Below are positions 28,393 through 41,367 of a stretch of 41,367 nt of DNA, piece by piece. The DNA comes from Candidatus Hydrogenedentota bacterium. Lineage in GTDB: Bacteria; Hydrogenedentota; Hydrogenedentia; Hydrogenedentales; JAEUWI01. Numbering within the stretch: the stretch's first letter is position 1; each line of letters opens with the position of its first letter. Under the pieces are notes generated by a model. The model was not told the origin of the DNA. It saw nothing but the letters and a program-made list of their open reading frames with translations, and made no database searches. Both the position numbers and the translations under genes were made by a program. The stretch lies in contig JAHBVV010000042.1 in the NCBI GenBank assembly GCA_019637335.1, positions 1 through 41,367 on the forward strand, given 5' to 3'.

Positions 28393-28429
28393 CGGGAGCA
28401 GCCGCGGGCGGCGATCAGGAGTTGTGACC

Positions 28430-28625
28430 ACGGATTACACGGATGACACGGATAGCAATTCGTTCCGGCCGTTGCGGCGTGCCGGCGGCTGCGTGCGATT
28501 TTCGACGTGGCCTGTTTGGATTGTTCAGCATCGGAATTGTAGCGGGGTTGATCGGGTGGCGGGCTGCTTCTTCTCGTTTGGTTCGCGTGTCGCTGCAATC
28601 CGTGTCATCGGTGTAATCTGTGGTC
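28430..28625. repeat. Inverted pair of GGATTACACGGA-type triple repeats
   Basis: 28432-28457 reads CCACGGATTACACGGATGAC and so on. 28594-28620 is its inverted copy (ATCCGTGTCATCGGTGTAAT followed by CTGTGG). About 25 of 30 bases pair, enclosing ~135 bases with no gene I can support. It could form a long hairpin or be a small non-autonomous element with inverted ends. No target-site duplication is obvious. Confidence 0.7.
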
Positions 28626-28832
28626 AAGACAAGAATTTCGCCCACGAAACTTGCGGAACGGCCCGGAAATTCTCCCTGGGTATTTCGCTTCGTAAGTGAT
28701 TTTGCAACAATTGGTTATATGGATTTTGAACGAAAGCGCTTGCAGAAAAAACAAGAAGTTGACGGAAAGTAGTACAAAGAATAAAGGCGTGTGACGAAGA
28801 GGGGAAGCATGTGGAAACCGCAAACGGCTGCA

Positions 28833-29010
28833 GGGAACGCGAAGCGTGGTGGCGGCGCGAGGGCTTCTGATTGGGTTAAGGGCGCGGGGCGCGCGGTCGC
28901 GCTTTTGCAGACAGCGGCGCGGAATGGTACGGTGGGGTATCTCGCTCGTTGGGTGGGTTGAATATATCGATGTTTTCTGTTGTAATCTTGTCTACACGAG
29001 GCGTGAGGCG
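28833..29010 (+). repeat. Dispersed ~175-base repeat, copy 1 (left of the RHS island)
   Basis: Shares ordered blocks with 38686-38860: GAAGCGTGGTGG, GGCGCGAGGGCTTCTGATTG, TGCGCTTTTGCAG-like, GGGGTATCTCGCTCGT, GGGTGGGTTGAATAT and TGTTGTAATCTTGT. The ends fade in both copies. It sits just before the first RHS fragment, in the same orientation as copy 2 just after the island. Antisense reading frames through both copies look alike only because the DNA repeats. Confidence 0.85.
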
Positions 29011-29046
29011 TTGTGGAGATCAAACAACTGAAGGCGCGAGCACAGG

Positions 29047-30552
29047 ATGGGGCATGAAACTTTCAGCAAGAGGGACTATTTCTACGACGCGCGCAAGCGG
29101 CTCACCAAGGCGGAGCGTTTCGATACGGACGGGACGACGCTCCTACACCGCTACAGCTACACCTATGATGCGGGGGACAACCTGGTGACGAAGGCGGTGC
29201 TGGACAATGGGACTTCCACGACGACCACCACGGTCTTCGCGTACAACAGCGCCAACGAGCAAACCTCCATGACCGTGGGCGGGACGACCACAACGCAGGC
29301 CTACGACGCGTGGGGGCGCCTTACGGGCCGCGCCCAGGGCGGCTACAGCGCCACCTACGCCTTTCCTCCTGCGGCGGACCTTCGGCGCTACGGCGATAAG
29401 CTCTACAGCGTGACCAGCGACTTCCCGGGCGAGGGGGATGTCACCTACGAGTACGGGGGCGACCAGAAACGCCGCAGCCGCGTCGCGGGCGCCAGCGAGA
29501 CGTGGTACAACTGGGACGCGGGCTGGACGGTGCTGTCCGAGGAGGATAACGCGGACGGCTCCAGTGGCGCGCTGAAGCGGACCTACCGCGGGCGGAATGG
29601 CGCCCATGTCGACGGAACAAATCCGGCGACGGGCGCGTGGAAGTTCCCCACCCACGACAGCCTCGGCAGCAGCCGGAGCGTCTGGAACGCCGACAAGACC
29701 CTCTACGCCAGCTTCGAGCAGACGCCCTACGGGGAGGTGTACGCTTCTTCGGGTTCCACAACCAACGTCACGCGCCGCTACACCGGCCACGACTGGGACG
29801 AGACCGCCGAGGCCTACTTCGCGCCCTTCCGCTACTACCAGCCAGCCAGTGCGCGCTGGATGACGCGGGACCCCGCCGGAAACGTGGACGGACCCAACGT
29901 CTATGCCTATGTTGGCGGGAACCCGGTCATGGCCGTGGATTCGATGGGGCTTAGCCGAGGCCGTCCACGTAACCCTGAGCAAGAGGAGGAAGTTGAAGAA
30001 CACCGGCGGACTTATCACCGGGTCAGGAAAGCGTGTAACCTCCGAATAAAGAGCGCCCTGAAGTTAATTCAGACGGTGCTGGATTTGACTGCGGAGACTG
30101 TCAAGAGTAAGCGATACCTTACCGGTCGCTCGCGAAATGGAGAGCCGATCGAAGGTGATGAGATTGAGGGGGTCCACTTTGAATGGCAGGAACACATGGT
30201 GGTTGCAGGTAAAGAGTTTGAAGTCTTCAACTGGGATTCCGAGATTTCGGGCAGGGCCGGCGGAGTGCTTGGAGCGCATGGAAAGAGCCTTGTTAGAGGC
30301 CGTTTCAAGATAAGTATAAACGCTTGTCGAGAGGAGCTTCAGAACACTTCGCTTTCACCAGGGTTTCTTTGGCTAGTTGCCCACGAGGCCGCACATGCTG
30401 CACGCGACTTTAGTAGGGTGAAGTATGTCGTTACTGGAATCATGAATCTAGATGTATACGGGCGAGATCCTGGTACGTTCGCTGGGAGTGAGGAGACTGT
30501 AGCTGATGAATTTGCAAATTATATAGTCGCAGCTTTGCTTGTCTCGCCATAG
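29047..30552 (+). CDS. RHS 3' fragment 1 with zincin-like (HEAAH) C-terminal tip
   Basis: 501 codons without the N-terminal part of an RHS protein. RHS/YD repeats run from ~12 to 300 (for example RYSYTYDAGDN, YDAWGRLTGRAQGG). The RHS-associated core ends at ARWMTRDPAGNVDGPNVYAY, then VDSMGL (~300). The unrelated tip (~303-501) has H-E-A-A-H at 446-450 and E-E-T-V-A-D-E-F-A-N at 482-491, the layout of HExxH metallopeptidases with a downstream acidic ligand (IrrE/ImmA-like). RHS tips are usually toxins cut off inside the RHS shell and delivered to rivals. The start is weak (ATG with no ribosome-binding site), so this may be an orphan end rather than an expressed gene. GC content falls in the tip. 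Confidence 0.8.
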   Translation: MGHETFSKRDYFYDARKRLTKAERFDTDGTTLLHRYSYTYDAGDNLVTKAVLDNGTSTTTTTVFAYNSANEQTSMTVGGTTTTQAYDAWGRLTGRAQGGYSATYAFPPAADLRRYGDKLYSVTSDFPGEGDVTYEYGGDQKRRSRVAGASETWYNWDAGWTVLSEEDNADGSSGALKRTYRGRNGAHVDGTNPATGAWKFPTHDSLGSSRSVWNADKTLYASFEQTPYGEVYASSGSTTNVTRRYTGHDWDETAEAYFAPFRYYQPASARWMTRDPAGNVDGPNVYAYVGGNPVMAVDSMGLSRGRPRNPEQEEEVEEHRRTYHRVRKACNLRIKSALKLIQTVLDLTAETVKSKRYLTGRSRNGEPIEGDEIEGVHFEWQEHMVVAGKEFEVFNWDSEISGRAGGVLGAHGKSLVRGRFKISINACREELQNTSLSPGFLWLVAHEAAHAARDFSRVKYVVTGIMNLDVYGRDPGTFAGSEETVADEFANYIVAALLVSP

Positions 30553-30687
30553 CAGTAAATGACAACTCTGGATATAAGTACAACGGAATCAATCATCGCC
30601 TTTTCAGAAGGCGCTTACAGTGGCTTACAGGCGAGCGTTTGCTCTTAAGATGTTTTGAGCTGGTCGCCCAACCGGAGGAATACGCTT

Positions 30688-31368
30688 ATGTGGCGGCAAT
30701 GTAAGCATGGGTCTTTGATCATTGCGGCGAGCTTGTTCTTCGCCGCTTCAGCTTCCGGCTGTTCCCGGGCGAGACATGCTTATTCGTGCGAGAGCGTCAG
30801 GTCCAGCAATGCGGCCATGCCCGTTGAGGGTGTTCCGATTACGATAAGCCCTTCATTTACAATGAGGCCTGAAAACCCTTCCAAGGTGAAGCAACAGCTG
30901 GAGGACCGGAAGTCGATCCGGGCTCGTGTTGACGATTTATACGTTTCGCTCGAAAATCTGGGCGCGGACGCGTACAAGTTTGAAATTAAGTTGCATTTTG
31001 AGAATATTGGAGATATGGCGTATACAGTTCCAGTGAATAAGATACGGCTGGTCATGGCGGGCGCCGATGGCCTTGACGAGCGTGTCCTGTCGCAAGGGGA
31101 AAACGCGGAATACTATCCGTACGACATATACATGGTCCGGAATCTGTCGTTTGTGCAAATAAAAGGTAAGACAGCGGACGGGACCGTTGAAGTGGATTCA
31201 ATACAGTTGGTTCCGCGGGGCGAAGCCTATGTGCATGTTAATATCGATGCCGCGCCGTTTGAGGCCGGTACGCTTGTTCTTCCCCTGAAGCAGGAAACAA
31301 GCGGCATGGAGACCATGCTGTTTTTTGATCTTAAGCACATGCTTCAATACAGGGGCACAGTGCCCTAG
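30688..31368 (+). CDS. Lipoprotein, family A copy 1, in the RHS island
   Basis: 226 residues. The signal peptide ends in a lipobox (A-S-G-C, C25), so it is probably an outer- or inner-membrane lipoprotein. It is a clear paralogue of the gene at 32400: both share H/Q-A-Y-S-C, S-S-N-A/S-A-M-P, R-K-S-I-R/Q-A-R, a Y-F-E-V/I-K/H-L-x-F-x-N-x-G segment and Y-x-V-P-V-x-x-I-R-L. Predicted to be β-rich. I do not recognise a family. GGAGG lies nine bases before the ATG at 30688; a longer frame starts at TTG 30655. Lying 135 bases after RHS fragment 1, it is a candidate immunity or accessory protein, which is inference. Confidence 0.75.
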   Translation: MWRQCKHGSLIIAASLFFAASASGCSRARHAYSCESVRSSNAAMPVEGVPITISPSFTMRPENPSKVKQQLEDRKSIRARVDDLYVSLENLGADAYKFEIKLHFENIGDMAYTVPVNKIRLVMAGADGLDERVLSQGENAEYYPYDIYMVRNLSFVQIKGKTADGTVEVDSIQLVPRGEAYVHVNIDAAPFEAGTLVLPLKQETSGMETMLFFDLKHMLQYRGTVP

Positions 31369-31459
31369 CGCAGATGCGCAAATCGGTAGAAAGTCCAAGA
31401 GCGCCTGGCGCCGCAGGCCGAGGAGCGTCCCCAATGTGGCCGCTGAGAGGACCCATGAG

Positions 31460-32197
31460 GTGAAGAACGTCTACAAGTCTATAGGCACTCTACTGATGAT
31501 TTTGTGCTGCGGGAGTTCTAATTTCGCCTGTCTTTCGCAGAAGGTGCGCGTTTACGAAACGTATGACGTATCCGGCGTAAACGAATCGCCGCTGCTTGGT
31601 ACGGCGCAGACCAAAGTCGACTATATTGTGACCCCGTGGTTTCCAGTTGATTCGAAAGGGCGGGAGCTACTCAAAGGGCGCCAGTCGATACGTGTCGAAT
31701 ACAAGGGGCTGTATATCGAACCAATTCGCGCGACGCGGATATCCGGGTTGACCATCGCACTGAGATTGAAGAATGCGGGGAGTTCCGTTCAATCCATTCC
31801 TCTTGAATCCATTTATCTGGAAGTGGCAGATGAAGGCCGGGGCGGTGAGATTCTCCCCTTGGCGTATCTGCAAACAACAAGGCTGGAAGACGAAAACGGT
31901 GAACCGGTCGGCCTGCGTCGAGATTTGCCGTATATTAATATACGTCTTTACCATTTGGATGTAAAGAAGGGTGAAAGCGCGGAGCCCAACTCGCCTTTTT
32001 CGGAGGGCACAATATCGGTGCTCCCGAAGGAAGAGCTCGACGTTGTACTCGGATATCCGGGCTTCAATTTCAACACCGGGGAACTGCGCCTCGCGGTCCT
32101 GGAAAGTGATAGCGAACAAGAGGTAATGCCGAGATTCCAAATTCGGTATGTTGGAGCCTACAGAGCCCGTGGTCATAATATACTTCCCGTTCCCTGA
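31460..32197 (+). CDS. Lipoprotein, family B copy 1, in the RHS island
   Basis: 245 residues with a short signal peptide and a probable lipobox cysteine (N-F-A-C, C24). It is a paralogue of the gene at 33237. Both share V-x-V-Y-E-x-x-D-V-S-G, R-x-S-I/V-R-x-E-F/Y-x-G-L-x-I-E-P, a P-L-E/G-S-x-x-L-x-V-A region, and M-R/P-F-x-V/I-x-Y-x-G near the C-terminus. No known domain recognised. I took GTG at 31460, nine bases after GAGAGG, over the longer frame, whose N-terminus is Arg-rich and has no ribosome-binding site. It follows the family A gene by 91 bases. Confidence 0.72.
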   Translation: MKNVYKSIGTLLMILCCGSSNFACLSQKVRVYETYDVSGVNESPLLGTAQTKVDYIVTPWFPVDSKGRELLKGRQSIRVEYKGLYIEPIRATRISGLTIALRLKNAGSSVQSIPLESIYLEVADEGRGGEILPLAYLQTTRLEDENGEPVGLRRDLPYINIRLYHLDVKKGESAEPNSPFSEGTISVLPKEELDVVLGYPGFNFNTGELRLAVLESDSEQEVMPRFQIRYVGAYRARGHNILPVP

Positions 32198-32399
32198 ACT
32201 CAGGCAGGTACATACGATTGGGAAAGGACCGATACCTTCGCGGCGAGAAAAGTGTAGAAGTTCTTGCAGACCATGTTATTTCGGCCGGATTCGATTATAC
32301 TGCGTATACATCCGACAGCGTCACATACGGAAATGGACGGGCGACAGAAGGACCTGGTTCGAATTCTTCCAGAGCCAGGTTGCCGAGGAGGTATCCACC

Positions 32400-33089
32400 A
32401 TGGAAAAGTCGCGAGCGCATCGTTGCTTAGTCGTTGCCGTGATCCTGCTTGGAGTGATCACGTTGTCAGGATGTGGGCCAATTCGACAGGCCTATTCGTG
32501 CAATGGGGTGCAGTCGAGCAATTCCGCAATGCCACTGGAAGTTTCCCCCATCGTGATTGAATTCACGAACCGGTTGCCAAAAGATCCCATGGAAGTAGAC
32601 CCGCAGTTGCAGCGCCGGAAGTCGATTCAGGCCCGTATTAACGACCTTTCCGTTTCGCCGCTGAACCTGGCCGGGGATGCATATTACTTTGAGGTGCATT
32701 TACGTTTCGACAATGTCGGTGAGGCCGTGTACGCGGTGCCGGTCGATGAGATCCGACTCGAGATTCCAATCGATGGAGGCGGCGATGTGCGCGCCGAGGC
32801 GCCCGAAGGGGCAAATGAGGAAATCCTTCCCGCTTATCTTTCCGCTATGAGAAAAAGAGTTGAGCCGGCTTTCGAGGCGTTCAAGGGTGAATTTGCCGTA
32901 AGTAAAAGCGAAGAAAGTTCTATAACCTTGTTTGCGCATGACGAAACGATTATCAATGTGGATTTTCGCAGTCCACCCTTTGAAACTGGCACGCTGGTGT
33001 TTTCACTTCGGAACGAGACCACCCTGGAAAAAACCACCCTATCGTTCGACATCCAGCACTTCCTGACGTATCGAGGCGCGATCTATTGA
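32400..33089 (+). CDS. Lipoprotein, family A copy 2
   Basis: 229 residues with a standard lipoprotein signal: VVAVILLGVITLSGC, lipid cysteine C25. Aligns along its whole length with the gene at 30688; the best-conserved stretch is RRKSIQARINDLSVSPLNLA, then D-A-Y-Y-F-E-V-H-L-R-F-D-N-V-G. GAGGAGG lies a few bases before the ATG. A longer frame upstream is rejected because it has no ribosome-binding site and loses the lipobox position. A possible terminator separates it from the family B copy. Function unknown. Confidence 0.78.
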   Translation: MEKSRAHRCLVVAVILLGVITLSGCGPIRQAYSCNGVQSSNSAMPLEVSPIVIEFTNRLPKDPMEVDPQLQRRKSIQARINDLSVSPLNLAGDAYYFEVHLRFDNVGEAVYAVPVDEIRLEIPIDGGGDVRAEAPEGANEEILPAYLSAMRKRVEPAFEAFKGEFAVSKSEESSITLFAHDETIINVDFRSPPFETGTLVFSLRNETTLEKTTLSFDIQHFLTYRGAIY

Positions 33090-33193
33090 TTCATTCACCA
33101 TGCCTTGAACGCGATCGCGCGCCCGGTGCGATTTTGGTCGCGGCGCCACCCTGTTCGCGAGAACGGGCTTTACTAAAGTTGCGCGACGCGCAG

Positions 33194-33224
33194 CGCCCGA
33201 GGCGCCCGGGCGTTCTCGTTTTGT
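33194..33224 (+). terminator. Possible weak intrinsic terminator
   Basis: A CGCCCG / CGGGCG stem with a seven-base loop is followed by a T-rich tail (TTCTCGTTTTGTTT). It lies just before the ribosome-binding site of the second family B gene, so it could act as an attenuator rather than a full stop. Confidence 0.35.
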
Positions 33225-33236
33225 TTGGAGGCATGC

Positions 33237-33953
33237 ATGACGCGTTATATCGAACAACATAAACGACTTCTCGCAGTTTTGGCCCTGTTTTACTGTGCGT
33301 TTTCCGGCATGAGCTGTATGCCGGACGTGCACGTGTATGAGGTCCCGGATGTATCGGGCGAGGCCGGCGGCGAGGCAATAGCAATAGAACCTACTGTTAC
33401 GACGGATCCACGTTTTTTTCCGCTCCCAACTGACGGGGCCAGGTGGGCAGATAGTCGCCGCTCGGTTCGGGGCGAATTTCGCGGCCTGAATATAGAGCCG
33501 TTAAGCGTATTGTGCATAAAGGACCAAACTGAAATTTTGTTACGGATATTCAATAATGGGGATAGCGAATTCGCCATTCCCTTCGGGTCCATGCAGCTGG
33601 ACGTTGCGGCCGAGTTGGATGGCGAGGAAGAGAAGGCTTCACGCTCTCCGGAGAGAACAGTACCTGCAGACTGGGCCCAGGTTGTGCGCCGTGGCGAGAT
33701 GCCTGGAAGAGTTACGGTGTACCACAGGAAACAAACCTTCTATCAGGACGCCGGCGGGGTACCCCAACCTTTCGTGAATGCCAAGTTCACCGTAGAGCCA
33801 GAAGACGTAAGGGAACTTCTGGTAGGTTTTGAGGCGGCGGAGTTTCGTAATGGAGCGCTTATCATTACTGCAGTAGAAAAGGGAGGCGGACAAGAAATAA
33901 CGATGAGATTCGATGTAGAATACATGGGAAGTTACAAACACGCCCGCTACTAA
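33237..33953 (+). CDS. Lipoprotein, family B copy 2
   Basis: 238 residues. The signal region LLAVLALFYCAFSGMSC ends in a lipobox-like G-M-S-C (C27). The mature part opens VHVYEVPDVSGEAGGE, the same pattern as the first family B protein, and closes with M-R-F-D-V-E-Y-M-G-S-Y. GGAGG is five bases before the ATG. It ends only eleven bases before RHS fragment 2 opens. With 30688, 31460 and 32400 it forms a duplicated two-gene module. Function unknown; a role in protecting against, or displaying, the RHS-linked protein is a guess. Confidence 0.75.
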   Translation: MTRYIEQHKRLLAVLALFYCAFSGMSCMPDVHVYEVPDVSGEAGGEAIAIEPTVTTDPRFFPLPTDGARWADSRRSVRGEFRGLNIEPLSVLCIKDQTEILLRIFNNGDSEFAIPFGSMQLDVAAELDGEEEKASRSPERTVPADWAQVVRRGEMPGRVTVYHRKQTFYQDAGGVPQPFVNAKFTVEPEDVRELLVGFEAAEFRNGALIITAVEKGGGQEITMRFDVEYMGSYKHARY

Positions 33954-33964
33954 CCGCATTTCCA

Positions 33965-35686
33965 GTGGCATGGCGCAGGCCAACGAAGAGCGGGCGCCTC
34001 TGTGAAATCGTGGGAGTACGGACGGACTACGACGGCAGCCACCTGGACTACAGCTACGACAGCCAGGGGCGGGTAACCTCGATGAACGACTACCATGGCA
34101 ACACCACAAGCTACCTCTACGCGAGCGACGGGAAGCTGAGCACCATCACGGCGCCGGGCTCGAAAACATGGGCCTTTAGTTACGATGGCTACGACCGGCT
34201 GACCCGGGTGGACATCCCCAACGGCATGCACACGGAATACGCCTTCGATTCCGAGGGCCGGCGGACCTCCATCACGCATAAGGACGGCTCGACGGTGAAG
34301 CAGAGTTTTGATTACGCGTTCACCGATGGGAATGCCATTACAAAGATCACCCACGGCGATGGCTCGTTGTGGGAATACGAGCACGACGCGCGCAAGCGGC
34401 TCACCAGGGCGGAGCGTTTCGATACGGACGGGACGACGCTCCTGCACCGCTACAGCTACACCTATGATGCGGGGGACAACCTGGTGACCAAGGCGGTGCT
34501 GGACAACGGGACCTCCACGACGACCACCACGGTCTTCGCGTACAACAGCGCCAACGAGCAAACCTCCATGACCGTGGGCGGGACGACCACAACCCAGGCC
34601 TACGACGCGTGGGGGCGCCTTACGGGTCGCGCCCAGGGCGGCTATTCGGCCACCTACGCCTTTCCTCCTGCGGCGGACCTTCGGCGCTACGGCGATAAGC
34701 TTTACAGCGTGACCAGCGACTTCCCGGGCGAGGGGGACGTCACCTACGAGTACGGGGGCGACCAGAAACGCCGCAGCCGCGTCGCGGGCGCCAGCGAGAC
34801 GTGGTACAACTACGACATGGGCTGGAACGTGCTGTCCGAGGAGGACGACGCGGACGGGGCCACGGGCGCCCTGACGGCGACGAACGTGCTGCTGACGCCG
34901 GGCGCGGAGGTGAGCGCACTTCTCGCGGACATCGCGGGGGCCAGCCCCGCCAGCGGCGCGCCGCGCTACTACGTCACCGACCACCTCGGCAGCACCCGCG
35001 GCGCGTACGACGCGTCCGGGGCCGCCGCCGGAACCTACGAATACAGCCCCTACGGCGGGGCCTACGCCGTCGCGGGCGACGCGCTGGAGACGCTCTCCGC
35101 CAGCTTCACCGGCAAGCCCTGGGACGCCGACAGCAACCTGTACCACTTCCCCTACCGCACGTACAGCCCGGAACGCGCGCGCTGGATGACCCGCGACCCG
35201 CTGGGGATGGTGGATGGGCCGAATGTCTTTACCTATGTAAGAGCAAATCCGGTTATGTTTACAGATTTGCTTGGGAACGTCTCATCTGATCCAGGAGACC
35301 TTAATTGGACGAATTGGCTCTCCTATAAGTATAAAACTTCTGAAGGATTAATTCAGCAGAGTAGAGGGTGCTATCTTCAGGGTTCAACCGTAGAGATTCG
35401 CCAATATCGATGCTTGATTCAGCAGGAGTATTGGAACGCGGGGTTTTATCAAGAATGTTATGATGAATGCAGAGAATGGTTGGCTCCGGATTCGCTCTTG
35501 GGCGATATATTGGAATTTATAAAGGGTTATGGTACACTCGGGTTCTCCACCTTTGTGACCCATTATACATGTAGAGATTTCTGCAGAAACGAGGATGCCC
35601 AGTATGAGTATATATATGTGTACTACCAATGCACGGGTATGGATCAGGGTCATAGGCGAAAGAACTGCAAGGCTGGACGAGCGTAA
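33965..35686 (+). CDS. RHS 3' fragment 2 with cysteine-rich C-terminal tip
   Basis: 573 codons from a GTG with no convincing ribosome-binding site, so it looks like the 3' part of an RHS gene cut off upstream. YD/RHS repeats begin at ~20 (LDYSYDSQGRVTSMNDYHGN) and continue to the core (YYVTDHLGSTRGAYDASG, ARWMTRDPLGMVDGPNVFTY, TDLLGN, ending ~437). The remaining ~135 residues form a tip with eight cysteines, aromatic-rich and lower in GC; I recognise no toxin family. Nucleotides 34577-35226 are ~98% identical to RHS fragment 3. The next gene, a small membrane protein, begins 31 bases after the stop and is a candidate immunity partner. Confidence 0.78.
   Translation: MAWRRPTKSGRLCEIVGVRTDYDGSHLDYSYDSQGRVTSMNDYHGNTTSYLYASDGKLSTITAPGSKTWAFSYDGYDRLTRVDIPNGMHTEYAFDSEGRRTSITHKDGSTVKQSFDYAFTDGNAITKITHGDGSLWEYEHDARKRLTRAERFDTDGTTLLHRYSYTYDAGDNLVTKAVLDNGTSTTTTTVFAYNSANEQTSMTVGGTTTTQAYDAWGRLTGRAQGGYSATYAFPPAADLRRYGDKLYSVTSDFPGEGDVTYEYGGDQKRRSRVAGASETWYNYDMGWNVLSEEDDADGATGALTATNVLLTPGAEVSALLADIAGASPASGAPRYYVTDHLGSTRGAYDASGAAAGTYEYSPYGGAYAVAGDALETLSASFTGKPWDADSNLYHFPYRTYSPERARWMTRDPLGMVDGPNVFTYVRANPVMFTDLLGNVSSDPGDLNWTNWLSYKYKTSEGLIQQSRGCYLQGSTVEIRQYRCLIQQEYWNAGFYQECYDECREWLAPDSLLGDILEFIKGYGTLGFSTFVTHYTCRDFCRNEDAQYEYIYVYYQCTGMDQGHRRKNCKAGRA
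34577..35226 (+). repeat. 650-bp RHS core duplicate, copy in fragment 2
   Basis: Base-for-base alignable with 36283-36932, no gaps, about 12 differences by my count, mostly near the two ends; the central ~300 bases are identical. The first part (to ~34810) is also shared with RHS fragment 1 (29279-29510). Such identity points to recent duplication or ongoing gene conversion. Confidence 0.92.
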
Positions 35687-35717
35687 TTGGTTTCTTGAGG
35701 CAAGGAGATTTAAATCG

Positions 35718-36032
35718 ATGATGCGAACAGCTGGAAGATGGGTTTCGTCCTCAGGGAAAAAATACTTCGTCGGGGCGAGGAAGTGGATTCGCTTAAGAGG
35801 TGCAGTATTCATAACAGATGCCATCTTTGCATGCATCTACATTGCTGTCATGGAAGTTCTCTTCATATTTCCAAGCACACTCGTCGTCGCACCCCTAATT
35901 CTGGTTCCTATATTTATGGTATGGCTTTTTCTCGGTTGGCCAGTCTATGTCAAGGTGCGATCTATCTTTACTGCGCTGGGCGGCATTTCAAGGAATTCGT
36001 CACGAGCGAGCGATGACACTTCGACGAAATAG
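35718..36032 (+). CDS. Small membrane protein, candidate immunity protein for RHS tip 2
   Basis: 104 residues. A basic N-terminus (MRTAGRWVSSSGKKYFVGAR) is followed by two transmembrane helices (~AVFITDAIFACIYIAVMEVLF and VVAPLILVPIFMVWLFLGW) with a positive/polar tail. AAGGAG ten bases before the ATG supports this start rather than an earlier frame that overlaps the RHS gene. GC is lower than the flanks. Position directly after a toxin-like tip is what is expected of an immunity gene, but no family is recognised. Confidence 0.62.
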   Translation: MMRTAGRWVSSSGKKYFVGARKWIRLRGAVFITDAIFACIYIAVMEVLFIFPSTLVVAPLILVPIFMVWLFLGWPVYVKVRSIFTALGGISRNSSRASDDTSTK

Positions 36033-37398
36033 AGGGATTGGGGATAGGTGCCGAATTTCTGACAACGGGAACCTGACGAAGGTCACCGCCACGGGCCGGG
36101 ACGACACGCTGCTGGCCTACGACGGGATGAACCGATTGACAAAGGTGTCCTCCCCGGGCATCAATGAGGCGCAGACGACGACCTACGACCTCCTGGGGCG
36201 CGTGAGCGCCCGGAGCACGGTGAGCGGCGGGATCATGAGCCATGCCTACGACAAATGGCGCCGGGTGACGGCGATGAATCTCGGCGGGACGACCACAACG
36301 CAGGCCTACGACGCGTGGGGGCGCCTTACGGGCCGCGCCCAGGGCGGCTACAGCGCCACCTACGCCTATCCTCCTGCGGCGGACCTTCGGCGCTACGGCG
36401 ATAAGCTCTACAGCGTGACCAGCGACTTCCCGGGCGAGGGGGACGTCACCTACGAGTACGGGGGCGACCAGAAACGCCGCAGCCGCGTCGCGGGCGCCAG
36501 CGAGACGTGGTACAACTACGACATGGGCTGGAACGTGCTGTCCGAGGAGGACGACGCGGACGGGGCCACGGGCGCCCTGACGGCGACGAACGTGCTGCTG
36601 ACGCCGGGCGCGGAGGTGAGCGCACTTCTCGCGGACATCGCGGGGGCCAGCCCCGCCAGCGGCGCGCCGCGCTACTACGTCACCGACCACCTCGGCAGCA
36701 CCCGCGGCGCGTACGACGCGTCCGGAGCCGCCGCCGGAACCTACGAATACAGCCCCTACGGCGGGGCCTACGCCGTCGCGGGCGACGCGCTGGAGACCCT
36801 CTCCGCCAGCTTCACCGGCAAGCCCTGGGACGCCGACAGCAACCTGTACCACTTCCCCTACCGCATGTACAGCCCCGAACGCGCGCGCTGGATGACCCGC
36901 GACCCGCTGGGGATGGTGGATGGGCCGAATGTGTATGCGTATGTGGGCGGAGGTGTGGTAATGATGGTAGACGTGCTCGGATTGTCAGCGCGGGCAGACG
37001 AAGCGGAGTGCTATGAAAAACTTCGGAGAGAGTTCCTGAGCGAAGTCGAAGACTATCTTGCGTCCCAAGCCATAGGTTATGTGGTCGGACTCCTCCTTGA
37101 GGGCGGCCTCGTTTTCTATTGTGCGTATGCGACATATGTAGCCATTGCCAGTGCTGGAACTCTTTCGGTTGTCGCCGCAGCGTGCTGGGCGGTGTCTTCC
37201 TTTGGGCTCTTGGGCTTGAGCGCTGTTCTCGTTAGCCCTCCAACAGGGAGCGTAGATACGGCATTGAGAGAAACCGTAAAGAGTCTGAAACGATGCTTAC
37301 TTCAAATCGGCGTTGATTCCGATGACTTGGACCTGGGTGGCGGATACTACCGAGACGAACGAGGGCATAGGCGTCGAATACCGACCGTGAGATCGTAA
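36013..37398 (+). CDS. RHS 3' fragment 3 with hydrophobic C-terminal tip
   Basis: About 461 codons; RHS similarity begins near 36060 (DNGNLTKVTATGRDDTLLAY). The frame is open from ATG 35947, but the part before ~36050 is unconserved and overlaps the small membrane gene; no good ribosome-binding site is present. YD repeats lead to the core (ARWMTRDPLGMVDGPNVYAY, then VDVLGL). The tip of ~136 residues has a charged helix, then two hydrophobic helices (AIGYVVGLLLEGGLVFYCAY and a segment around AACWAVSSFGLLGLSAVL), then a basic tail. It could be pore-forming or membrane-acting (guess). Its YD repeats upstream of 36283 differ from those in fragments 1 and 2, showing mosaic structure. Confidence 0.75.
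   Translation: MTLRRNRGIGDRCRISDNGNLTKVTATGRDDTLLAYDGMNRLTKVSSPGINEAQTTTYDLLGRVSARSTVSGGIMSHAYDKWRRVTAMNLGGTTTTQAYDAWGRLTGRAQGGYSATYAYPPAADLRRYGDKLYSVTSDFPGEGDVTYEYGGDQKRRSRVAGASETWYNYDMGWNVLSEEDDADGATGALTATNVLLTPGAEVSALLADIAGASPASGAPRYYVTDHLGSTRGAYDASGAAAGTYEYSPYGGAYAVAGDALETLSASFTGKPWDADSNLYHFPYRMYSPERARWMTRDPLGMVDGPNVYAYVGGGVVMMVDVLGLSARADEAECYEKLRREFLSEVEDYLASQAIGYVVGLLLEGGLVFYCAYATYVAIASAGTLSVVAAACWAVSSFGLLGLSAVLVSPPTGSVDTALRETVKSLKRCLLQIGVDSDDLDLGGGYYRDERGHRRRIPTVRS
36283..36932 (+). repeat. 650-bp RHS core duplicate, copy in fragment 3
   Basis: Partner of 34577-35226 (about 12 mismatches, no gaps). Both ends are sharp: before it the two genes carry different YD repeats, after it different tips. 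Confidence 0.92.
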
Positions 37399-37504
37399 CA
37401 CTCAAGGTCAGGTCGACCTCACTCAAAGAGCCAATGGTTTTGAAAGTGTTGAGTAACGGGATAACTCTACGTGGTCAATAGAGTAACAGAGAGGGTGTGA
37501 TTCC

Positions 37505-38350
37505 GTGCAAATTCCCGAAGCAAACTCTTTTTTCACTTTTCCAGTGATCTTTCTATTTGCTGTGGCGAAATATGACATGTACATAATCATCGCTTGTCTG
37601 CTCGCCTTGTCTTCTGCATCTGTAATCATCGGTCGTATTGTAAAGCGCTTCCAAAAGGAGATGGCAAGTGCGCAAGCCACAACACACCTCAAGCGCCTTC
37701 GTGGGTGGTGTCTTCTTATTCAAGTTGCAGTCTACTCCTTACTCATAAGCACGTGGATCACGGAACAAGAAGGGTGGTTGCTGTTGCATGAGTTCTTGGA
37801 AGCGTGGTATTTCATTTCTTTGGCTCTAGGCTCCTTGGCTCTCTGTGCCCTGCTTGGGTTTAGTACTGGCATGGCAGAAATCTATTGGAGAGAAGTTCGG
37901 GCCCCGGGTGCGGGGTTGGCACTCTTACGTTCATACGAAGCATATCGACCTTCATCTAACTCCGCGCGGGTATTGCGTGCAATTTTGGTGCCGCCCCCGG
38001 TTTGTGTAAAGCGGGTTATGGTGTTGGTGTTATTTTCACTGGTCGCAGTCTTTGCATCGTTGTGGTTGAAGGCGATTTGGGTTACGCAACACGCCACAGT
38101 GGCCACAGCATATATGGCGGGCGGCTGGGCGGCGGAGTCTGAACTAGAGAAAGGAGAGGCTCCCAAGGATATGGTTCTGCGTAGACGGCCCGTGGCTAAT
38201 ACTGACCGTGTGCCCGGAGACTTAAGGGTTGAATACTGGGAGAGCAAATTGGGGTACATGCACTACATCGTACAAAAGGGATTTGTCGAAGGATATAACA
38301 TGTACGTAAAACATGCACGCCAAAGGGGCGAAACATCCGGTCGCGAATAG
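37505..38350 (+). CDS. Multi-pass membrane protein, candidate immunity partner of RHS tip 3
   Basis: 281 residues from GTG with GAGAGGG upstream. About four to five transmembrane helices: FFTFPVIFLFAV, MYIIIACLLALSSASVIIG, WCLLIQVAVYSLLIST, AWYFISLALGSLALCALLGF and VMVLVLFSLVAVFASLWL. A ~75-residue soluble C-terminus follows (MVLRRRPVANTDRVPGD...). No family recognised. It lies 106 bases after RHS fragment 3 and shares its lower GC. If tip 3 attacks membranes, a multi-pass protein would be a fitting immunity protein; this is inference. Confidence 0.65.
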   Translation: MQIPEANSFFTFPVIFLFAVAKYDMYIIIACLLALSSASVIIGRIVKRFQKEMASAQATTHLKRLRGWCLLIQVAVYSLLISTWITEQEGWLLLHEFLEAWYFISLALGSLALCALLGFSTGMAEIYWREVRAPGAGLALLRSYEAYRPSSNSARVLRAILVPPPVCVKRVMVLVLFSLVAVFASLWLKAIWVTQHATVATAYMAGGWAAESELEKGEAPKDMVLRRRPVANTDRVPGDLRVEYWESKLGYMHYIVQKGFVEGYNMYVKHARQRGETSGRE

Positions 38351-38444
38351 CTTTGGAGTTCAATGGGTGCAGTTCTGATATTACCGATGAATTACGAGCG
38401 CTATGGAGCGGGCCTTCAGCCCTCATAGGTTATTGGACCCCTTT

Positions 38445-38587
38445 GCCTGGGCCGATGGCCCAGGCTGGTTTGAAACAGGCCTTCGGCCCTGAATATCGTT
38501 TCTTCAGCGCCGAAGGCGCCCGATCATATCAGCCTGGGCCGCAGGCCCAGGAAGAATGCCGACGAATTCGGCCAGGGCTGAAAGCCC
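38445..38587. repeat. Cluster of five short palindromes with three-base loops
   Basis: Perfect or near-perfect hairpins at 38445-38465 (GCCTGGGCC/GGCCCAGGC, loop GAT), 38476-38491 (CAGGCC/GGCCCTG, loop TTC), 38507-38519 (GCGCC/GGCGC, loop GAA), 38533-38551 (CCTGGGCC/GGCCCAGG, loop GCA) and 38575-38587 (GGGCT/AGCCC, loop GAA). A weaker one lies at 38410-38422. Spacing is about 26-42 bases. This resembles REP-like intergenic elements. No gene is visible in 38351-38948. Confidence 0.85.
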
Positions 38588-38685
38588 GTATCATAGTGGG
38601 TTTCCGGCGAACTGCAAAAATCGGGACTATTCTTACTTCCTCATAGTCCGGGTGCGGTAATATTAGCATTGCACCCATTTCAATG

Positions 38686-38860
38686 GGGAACGCAAAGCGT
38701 GGTGGTGGCGCGAGGGCTTCTGATTGGATCCAGGGCGGCGGGTTGCGCTTTTGCAGCCAGCGGGGCGGAATGCTAGGGTGGGGGGGGTATCTCGCTCGTC
38801 GGGTGGGTTGAATATTTCGTAGGTTGCTGTTGTAATCTTGTTTGTGCAGAGAGTGAGGCG
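38686..38860 (+). repeat. Dispersed ~175-base repeat, copy 2 (right of the RHS island)
   Basis: Same block order and orientation as 28833-29010, with the best match around GGCGCGAGGGCTTCTGATTG and GGGTATCTCGCTCGT. The two copies bracket 9.7 kb holding all the RHS material. Confidence 0.85.
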
Positions 38861-38948: not shown

Positions 38949-39800
38949 ATGCGCTTGATTATCTTCATTTGCAGCGTGTGCGTCCACGCGGTAATTTCGC
39001 TCGCCTTATTCTTTGCGGCGCGCGGGGAACTTCACAACAAGTTTGCGGCAGATCTCATTCTCCTGGGCGTGGCGATTTACTTCGGCATTCGTCTGGCGAG
39101 GCACGAGGGACGCGATCCCACCCAGTTCAGCATGAATGCCGTCGGCGCATTCGTACCCGCTGTTTTGCTGGTGGTGGGCAACCTCTTCTCGCTGTCGGCC
39201 TCTTTTTTCTGGATCTGGCTGCGCGATTCGTTGCCGCCCTTTGCCCCGGTACCCGTGGAGCGGATGTCCGAGAGAATCGGCATTGCGGCGTGTCTGGTGC
39301 TGTCCATAGGAATCATTTGCCTGCTGGTATCCATCTACCGAAACGCCCGCGGGAGATCGGGGTTTCCGGCGGCAGCGCAAGACAGCCGATCGCCGGGCGG
39401 CGGCGGGGTCAAAGTCTCGCTGGGCAGGGCGCTTGGGCTGCAACTGGGCTTGATCTTCGTATTCGCCGCCGTGATGGCGGTCGGCGTCGTCTGGCACAAG
39501 GTGACTATCGCGGAGGTGCGAAAGGATTTGCTGAACGAGGCTTCCTTCAAGGACGTGGCGGTATACTCCCTCAGTCTGCGATTGGCGCAATCGGATTACG
39601 AATCCGGCAATCTGCGCCTGTTTACCCTGGAGGACACCGCCGTCGAGGGCGAATCGGAACCCGACGGGGACCGGTCCCTGAGCGTTTCCCGGCTGGAGTG
39701 GACCGGTGATGAAGCGACCGGTGCGGCGCTTGTCCGGAGGTTTGTTGCGGACTACAATCGAAAGATGCGGGGAACTGGTGAGCGCGCGTGCCGCGAATGA
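38949..39800 (+). CDS. Membrane protein of unknown function
   Basis: 283 residues. Four predicted helices in the first two-thirds: LIIFICSVCVHAVISLALFF, FVPAVLLVVGNLFSLSASFF, IGIAACLVLSIGIICLLVSI and LGLQLGLIFVFAAVMAVGVV. A ~100-residue soluble C-terminal domain follows (VTIAEVRKDLLNEASFKD...). GGGAGG precedes the ATG. GC-rich, unlike the RHS-linked genes before it. No family recognised. It lies just outside the dispersed repeat, so it may mark the return to ordinary sequence. Confidence 0.72.
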   Translation: MRLIIFICSVCVHAVISLALFFAARGELHNKFAADLILLGVAIYFGIRLARHEGRDPTQFSMNAVGAFVPAVLLVVGNLFSLSASFFWIWLRDSLPPFAPVPVERMSERIGIAACLVLSIGIICLLVSIYRNARGRSGFPAAAQDSRSPGGGGVKVSLGRALGLQLGLIFVFAAVMAVGVVWHKVTIAEVRKDLLNEASFKDVAVYSLSLRLAQSDYESGNLRLFTLEDTAVEGESEPDGDRSLSVSRLEWTGDEATGAALVRRFVADYNRKMRGTGERACRE

Positions 39801-39866: not shown

Positions 39867-40274
39867 ATGTCGAATCGCGCAGTGACTATGGCAATCCGTT
39901 GTTGCCAATTCCTGAATACCAAGTACGTGTTCGTGTTGGGTTCCGCATGGTTCTTCACACGTATCGGCGGGCAAAGCTTTCCGCTGCCATTCGTATTGTA
40001 TGGTATAGGGGTTTGCGCAGTTTATTTTGTTATCTGGCTGGAACTTAACAAACTCACCAGTCGGCGCGTTGTGTTTGGGAAGGGTGTCGGCTGCAGTTTG
40101 GGCGAGCTTGGCTCGGCCATCCTGATCCTGACGCATCCGGCGTTCTATCTGGCGGAGGATCGCGGCATCTGGGGAGTTCATGAGGTCTTTTTATATTTGT
40201 GGCCTGTTGGCTATCTCGTCGTCCTGGGCTTTGTCATTGGCATGATAGTGGATCGAAATGAGAAACTTACCTGA
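39867..40274 (+). CDS. Small membrane protein of unknown function
   Basis: 135 residues with four likely helices (YVFVLGSAWFF, LPFVLYGIGVCAVYFVIWL, GELGSAILILTHPAFYLA and LWPVGYLVVLGFVIGMIV). AGGAGGG is nine bases before the ATG. No family recognised. It follows the previous gene by 66 bases in the same direction. Confidence 0.7.
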   Translation: MSNRAVTMAIRCCQFLNTKYVFVLGSAWFFTRIGGQSFPLPFVLYGIGVCAVYFVIWLELNKLTSRRVVFGKGVGCSLGELGSAILILTHPAFYLAEDRGIWGVHEVFLYLWPVGYLVVLGFVIGMIVDRNEKLT

Positions 40275-40561: not shown

Positions 40562-40695
40562 GATTAGCCGCATTGCCATGCCGCCGTCGCGGCTTCCCGC
40601 AATTTTGGGTGCTTGCCCGGCCAGTTTCTGTCGGAAGGTGTAGCCTGGCCATCCGACACGGATTTTGGCGGCTTGCACAAGAGGAGATTCTGCTT

Positions 40696-41367
40696 GTGGG
40701 AAGTACAATCGAGATCGAGAGCAAGAATCTGGAGATGATACGATTAAGTGTAGTACGTGATTTTTTTCAGACGTTACCGTTTTTCGGGATGTTCTTGTTC
40801 ATGTTGGCGGCTGTAGCATTGTATGTTTACTCTGGGGACTTTCAAGCAGAGGGGGATCTCGATGTTAGAGTACTTCTAATGTTGCTCTTTTTTGCGATTC
40901 TTACTGGAGGTTTCACATATATCGTCGCAAAAGAACTTTTTCTCCGTGTCGAGGAGACAGGCGTTCGGAACCTTCATCCATGGAGGGGATTGATCCGGAC
41001 GCCGTGGTGTTACATTCGTGTTGTCGATCTTGGCGGACTCCGCTGTCGTTTGGAAGATGTTCGTGATGACAGAGAGCTCGGTACGGTGCACCTCGGTGAC
41101 TATGTATGCCCGACCGATGTGTTCGATACCATCGCAGTGAATCTCGGCTTCAAGGATACGGACGAAGGAAGGGCTATTCATGCGCGGATAGCGTCTCTAC
41201 TTACGCCGCGGCCGCCGTACCTTCATCGAATTCTTATTATTGGTTGGATTCTCTATTGTATCGCATTGCTAGCGACGATTGTCTTGACAGCGCTGTACCG
41301 GGAAAGCAGTTGGACAGGAAAATCAATTAGCGCTGGCTTTGTTCTTCTTTTCATTTTGCGGCATTAT
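40696..41367 (+). CDS. Partial membrane protein with a PH-like segment, runs off the window
   Basis: The frame from GTG 40696 stays open to the last base (224 codons, no stop). GAGGAG at 40681-40686 lies nine bases upstream. Two helices near the N-terminus (FFGMFLFMLAAVALYVYSG and VLLMLLFFAILTGGFTYIVA) are followed by a segment resembling bacterial PH domains (ELFLRVEETGVRNLHPWRGL, then IRTPWCYIRVVDLGGLRC), a region with C-P-T-D-V-F-D, and a third helix near residues 183-205 (ILIIGWILYCIALLATIVLT). The PH-like reading is tentative. Confidence 0.6.
   Translation, partial: MGSTIEIESKNLEMIRLSVVRDFFQTLPFFGMFLFMLAAVALYVYSGDFQAEGDLDVRVLLMLLFFAILTGGFTYIVAKELFLRVEETGVRNLHPWRGLIRTPWCYIRVVDLGGLRCRLEDVRDDRELGTVHLGDYVCPTDVFDTIAVNLGFKDTDEGRAIHARIASLLTPRPPYLHRILIIGWILYCIALLATIVLTALYRESSWTGKSISAGFVLLFILRHY

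Follow-up and report, generated by a model that had tools for sequence, protein, structure and literature searches.

Contig C42 of a Candidatus Hydrogenedentota genome carries three RHS gene ends with different tips between two copies of a direct repeat (DR1 and DR2), which raises the question of whether such a locus is a working store of toxin tips, a block that moves between its repeats, decaying debris, or the remnant of a longer RHS array. The window analysed here (41,367 nt) is the complete contig, and its right edge at 41367 is an assembly break; the genome assembly amounts to 7.16 Mb in 55 contigs and is 96% complete.

Left of the RHS island sit flagellar genes, a sialidase-like gene and a SOUL-like gene (all named by sequence reading). 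From 28833 to the contig end, all called genes are on the plus strand and toxin/immunity-like, in the order RHS fragment 1 with tip 1, lipoproteins A1, B1, A2 and B2, RHS fragment 2 with tip 2, a small transmembrane protein, RHS fragment 3 with tip 3, a four-TM protein, DR2, and the membrane-protein genes m4, m5 and m7. Far from being constant among close relatives, the island was absent from the relatives searched. Congeners possessed the SOUL-like flanking gene with none of the other tested window genes beside it, and no empty site was readable.

Three truncated RHS genes with unrelated tips

The RHS-derived genes of the island are:
29047..30552, plus strand: RHS 3′ fragment 1 with tip 1; core to about 29949, tip with a HEAAH zinc-peptidase-like motif
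33965..35686, plus strand: RHS 3′ fragment 2 with cysteine-rich tip 2 (tip about 35261–35683)
about 36049..37398, plus strand: RHS 3′ fragment 3 with hydrophobic tip 3 (tip about 36961–37395); core an apparent mosaic of copies 1 and 2

All three fragments comprised RHS/YD repeats and the Rhs_assc_core domain (TIGR03696, E 1e-17 to 1e-19) and lacked the N-terminal body, while their C-termini beyond the Rhs_assc_core boundary were unrelated to each other. GC content was 0.44–0.55 in the tips vs. 0.64–0.71 in the cores. The basic description given in an earlier note on this DNA, i.e. three truncated RHS 3′ ends whose low-GC tips are unrelated, between same-orientation repeats, thus held, as did its statement that the window contains no full-length RHS gene. 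Among named records, the nearest RHS core belonged to Candidatus Hydrogenedentota MAGs.

Tips 1–3, putative toxins, matched no known family, and neither they nor the candidate immunity proteins had a convincing family match. Tip 1, whose HEAAH motif (read from the sequence) resembles zinc peptidases, had no Pfam or PDB match and no homologue in 290 relatives, and its predicted structure was poor (pLDDT 58).

Core DNA was shared between copies 1 and 2 (492 bp at 94.7% identity) and between copies 2 and 3 (662 bp at 97.6%). Of 21 informative sites in copy 3, the first seven were copy-1-like and the last 14 copy-2-like, a partition with a chance probability of about 1e-5. Given this clean split, the core of copy 3 seems to have arisen by recombination between the other two.

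Past recombination of this sort would be expected of an active archive, from which tips would continue to be transferred by recombination into a complete, expressed RHS gene, as described for orphan Rhs in Salmonella LT2. In LT2, an orphan tip was fused to the main gene with which it shares 522 bp at 95% identity (PMC3967940), and the core blocks of the island (492–662 bp at 95–98%) are long enough by comparison. However, the assembly offered no recipient for this core: no complete RHS gene whose core matches was found in the 96%-complete genome, so that one could be missing from the assembly, the best long core match elsewhere was a truncated fragment (49%), and the sole giant RHS of the genome had 36% protein identity to the island core. 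The proposed store of toxin tips therefore stood with respect to orphan tips, linked immunity-type genes and core recombination, but not with respect to entry into a complete RHS gene, and an archive still in use appears doubtful.

Lipoprotein and membrane-protein genes accompany the tips

The tips are interleaved with, and followed by, genes for lipoproteins and membrane proteins, which we infer to be immunity genes:
30688..31368, plus strand: lipoprotein A1, candidate immunity; lipobox seen in the sequence, homologous to B1, A2 and B2
31463..32197, plus strand: lipoprotein B1; homology within the lipoprotein family
32400..33089, plus strand: lipoprotein A2; homology within the lipoprotein family
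33225..33953, plus strand: lipoprotein B2; homology within the lipoprotein family
35718..36032, plus strand: small transmembrane protein, candidate immunity to tip 2 by hydropathy and position
37505..38350, plus strand: four-TM protein, candidate immunity to tip 3 by hydropathy and position
38949..39800, plus strand: membrane protein m4, with a paralogue (52%) right where contig C19 begins
39867..40274, plus strand: membrane protein m5; paralogue (87%) at C19:995-1402
40690..41367, plus strand: membrane protein m7 by hydropathy, cut by the contig end

The interleaved lipoproteins reported earlier proved real, and all four (30688–33953) belonged to one family located 3′ of tip 1, with identities of 42% for A1/A2, 29% for B1/B2 and 21–25% for A vs. 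B (E 1e-6 to 1e-11). A distant fifth member (C16:105494-106402) adjoins another RHS fragment, and the family was confined to this genome among the 291 genomes searched. Its predicted fold was mostly beta (pLDDT 77), and comparison of the model with the PDB returned no significant match with good overlay. Tip 1 and the lipoproteins fit a toxin that acts in the periplasm and is countered by lipoprotein immunity factors that have diversified; similarly, hydrophobic tip 3 and the four-TM protein would resemble membrane-active toxins paired with membrane immunity.

Beyond DR2, m4, m5 and m7 formed a toxin-free, same-strand run of immunity-like genes, with short spacing up to the contig end. Homology between m3 and m4, suggested by eye, was not supported by BLAST. 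On C19, a run of low-GC membrane-protein genes likewise extends from the contig edge (L101, 1–2248), and its m4 paralogue is conserved at the ends and diverged in the middle.

That all pieces are functionless pseudogene debris would be in line with the sister RHS fragments on C16, C4 and C30, which are frameshifted or carry repeat insertions. In the island, however, every core and tip and each of the four lipoprotein genes reads as an open frame, the codon changes that separate the core copies are mostly synonymous (9:4 and 13:7 codons), and the lipoprotein paralogues have diverged yet are intact. Pure decay is thus an unlikely account of the locus.

The direct repeat resembles a leader

The two repeat copies lie 9.85 kb apart in the same orientation:
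28833..29010, plus strand: DR1, ~175-bp repeat, probable leader immediately 5′ of RHS fragment 1
38686..38860, plus strand: DR2, probable leader upstream of membrane-protein gene m4 (38949–39800)

DR1 and DR2 were 83% identical over about 160 bp (E 2e-42); BLAST homology stopped at 28991/38841, and gapped similarity continued to about 29014/38860. No third copy was found in the 7.16-Mb assembly, ruling out a repeat scattered genome-wide. In 59 relatives, neither the repeat nor a single-copy site was found, a lone 24-bp match in G016 being too short, and a search for known RNAs gave nothing above the gathering score and no match at all inside the repeat. Left of DR1, the short repeat TGACCACGGATTACACGGATGACACGGATAGCA occurs as an inverted pair (28425–28457 and 28594–28626).

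Both copies keep a promoter-like TTGAAT-N17-TGTAAT (near the 3′ end in DR1), a modest match whose score was equalled by 21 of 2000 column shuffles and which a standard promoter scan did not list. Against a leader role, the copies precede different genes, RHS fragment 1 and m4, respectively. The stretch that follows DR2 (38875 on; m4, m5) has a paralogue at the leftmost edge of C19, which opens about 14 bp beyond the point where the repeat would end. As C19 begins at this point with the m4/m5 paralogues, a third repeat copy may lie just beyond its left end. C42 and C19 may even be neighbours, with C42 running out and C19 running in at the same gene orientation. Contig ends of C1, C30, C19 and C42 cut through RHS fragments, leaders or linked genes, and RHS arrays are therefore probably under-assembled in this genome.

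The earlier note had interpreted the repeats as a boundary or entry site. As att-like or homologous entry boundaries, they would let a mobile tip island enter and leave as one block, in keeping with two same-orientation copies that flank the island and occur nowhere else in the genome, and with the lack of the island in congeners. However, the copies are old, being 17% diverged rather than near-identical, a scan of the island proteins revealed no integrase, recombinase or transposase and the island has no tRNA, DR2 is contiguous with m4, a gene family whose C19 copy begins at the same place, and comparable leaders at other RHS loci stand singly. We thus consider a boundary quite improbable; the repeat is more likely a promoter-bearing leader that belongs to module genes and was duplicated.

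Repeat-bracketed arrays as a general rule were considered and rejected: the candidate repeats in G057 and G007 and one pair in G022 were RHS coding sequence, and those in G031 and the second G022 pair were intergenic repeats.

Leaders and a RAYT-associated motif at other RHS loci

Seven other RHS-derived loci of the genome share two further leader families, F1 and F2:
L102 7443–9300 (C11): F1
L105 16922–18130 (C16): F1
L106 7428–9857 (C24): F1
L157 7449–7930 (C3): F1
L105 2656–3010 (C16, second locus): F2
L109 8303–8660 (C4): F2
L108 11305–11410 (C30): F2, cut by the contig end

The F1 leader (~500 bp) joins the RHS core at the same codon on C11, C16 and C24, and on C3 precedes another low-GC gene and an RHS remnant. 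F2 has exactly three genomic copies, all upstream of truncated RHS genes. Full-length F1 and F2 copies precede solely RHS fragments or remnants, at which they do not act as brackets. Sigma70-like promoters were present in both families (TTGACA-N17-TACGGT in F1; TTGCCA-N17-TATACT in F2, followed by AGGAGG-ac-ATG). The simplest reading of the C42 repeat is that it forms a third family of leaders and was duplicated together with its module.

Some RHS fragment edges also carry a 16-mer, GGGACAGCCACCTATT, found at 20 sites with up to two mismatches, compared with 3 sites for a reversed control. It stands immediately 5′ of intact RAYT genes (Y1_Tnp) on C34 and C1. The motif, or a copy with up to three mismatches, also precedes RHS YD remnants on C34, C1, C16, C3 (two), C11 and C29 at a distance of 12 to about 260 bp, and RHS tips on C11, C16 and C24 carry it at their 3′ end. 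On C34 (L179, 2680–5276) and C1 (L180, 2786–5043), a RAYT gene and a low-GC cargo gene lie between two copies of this motif type, and RHS YD remnants follow immediately behind the second one. The RAYT-adjoining cargo genes on C34 and C2 are mutually homologous, and a secreted-looking family beside RAYT (L181 3886–6716 on C2 and L179 2903–4309 on C34) is 42–72% identical and shares the motif GGTETGLGxLPPVGSVSA. In the C42 island, neither the motif nor a RAYT gene was found; its related feature is:
38436..38561, no strand assigned: palindromic REP-like pair, also at C16

Leaders and the RAYT-associated motif thus recur at RHS fragment edges genome-wide, as an association only, and REP/RAYT insertion into intergenic spaces could explain the co-occurrence of motif and RHS genes. 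That RHS tip/immunity modules spread in this lineage as units of a leader (three families, one being the C42 repeat), a tip or cargo gene and a terminal GGGACAGCCACCTATT, with RAYT single-strand transposition helping to disperse and re-express cassettes away from the parent RHS gene, seems improbable.

A probable array without its head

The giant RHS gene of the genome, an ORF of about 6570 aa (L103/L104; C32 about 24825–44460, minus strand), is followed by two orphan tips, both opening with the core-end peptide VDPFGLAAGGNS. In the relatives G031 and G057, full-length RHS ORFs of 2257 and 2277 aa are directly followed, on the same strand, by RHS copies that are truncated and by low-GC genes for membrane or secreted proteins. 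Because tips stand behind full-length or giant RHS genes in these cases, the C42 array is best read as an array like that of the relatives minus its head. According to the published account, new cassettes insert at the 3′ end and older ones stay behind (PMC3482391).

Taken as a whole, we put the probability that the locus is a headless orphan rhs-CT/immunity array, with its 5′ part lost and its direct repeat a duplicated leader, at about three in four. An ancestral RHS toxin locus would have taken up tip-plus-immunity cassettes via homologous recombination in the core, each uptake leaving the older RHS 3′ ends downstream, and the 5′ part of the main gene would have been lost later. The candidate immunity genes may have been retained as protection against siblings or neighbours still bearing those tips, and the repeat may have been duplicated as a promoter-bearing leader, with DR1 placed before RHS fragment 1 and DR2 before m4.

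Relation to known systems and biological meaning

The layout, whose combination of bracketing repeats and interleaved lipoprotein modules the earlier note did not recognise, is best placed in the orphan rhs-CT/immunity class. As in the orphan rhs-CT/rhsI modules of Salmonella and other Enterobacteriaceae, a truncated core with an alternative tip is followed by an immunity-type gene, in tandem, and core homology allows recombination (PMC3967940). Unlike those modules, the C42 locus has no main rhs gene, belongs to a Hydrogenedentota host, has a four-member lipoprotein family as candidate immunity to tip 1 and carries promoter-like leader repeats. Arrays of tip cassettes with adjacent immunity-type genes are likewise known from polymorphic toxin systems (PMC3482391). 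The m4–m7 run resembles a polyimmunity locus in being same-stranded, closely spaced and toxin-free, its genes being candidate immunity genes and the contig ending there; unlike in such loci, no immunity-like gene of C42 matches a Pfam family. The REP-like palindrome of the island, and the RAYT genes and motif near RHS remnants elsewhere, recall REP/RAYT systems (IS200/Y1_Tnp), from which the island differs in having neither RAYT gene nor motif.

The locus documents orphan RHS toxin/immunity arrays in the barely studied phylum Hydrogenedentota, and adds a new family of lipoproteins that may confer periplasmic immunity, as well as a toxin-free run of immunity-like membrane genes. Orphan rhs modules usually lack start signals. 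If the pattern of leaders and RAYT-associated motifs holds, it would provide a concrete route for dispersing orphan tips with their own promoters.
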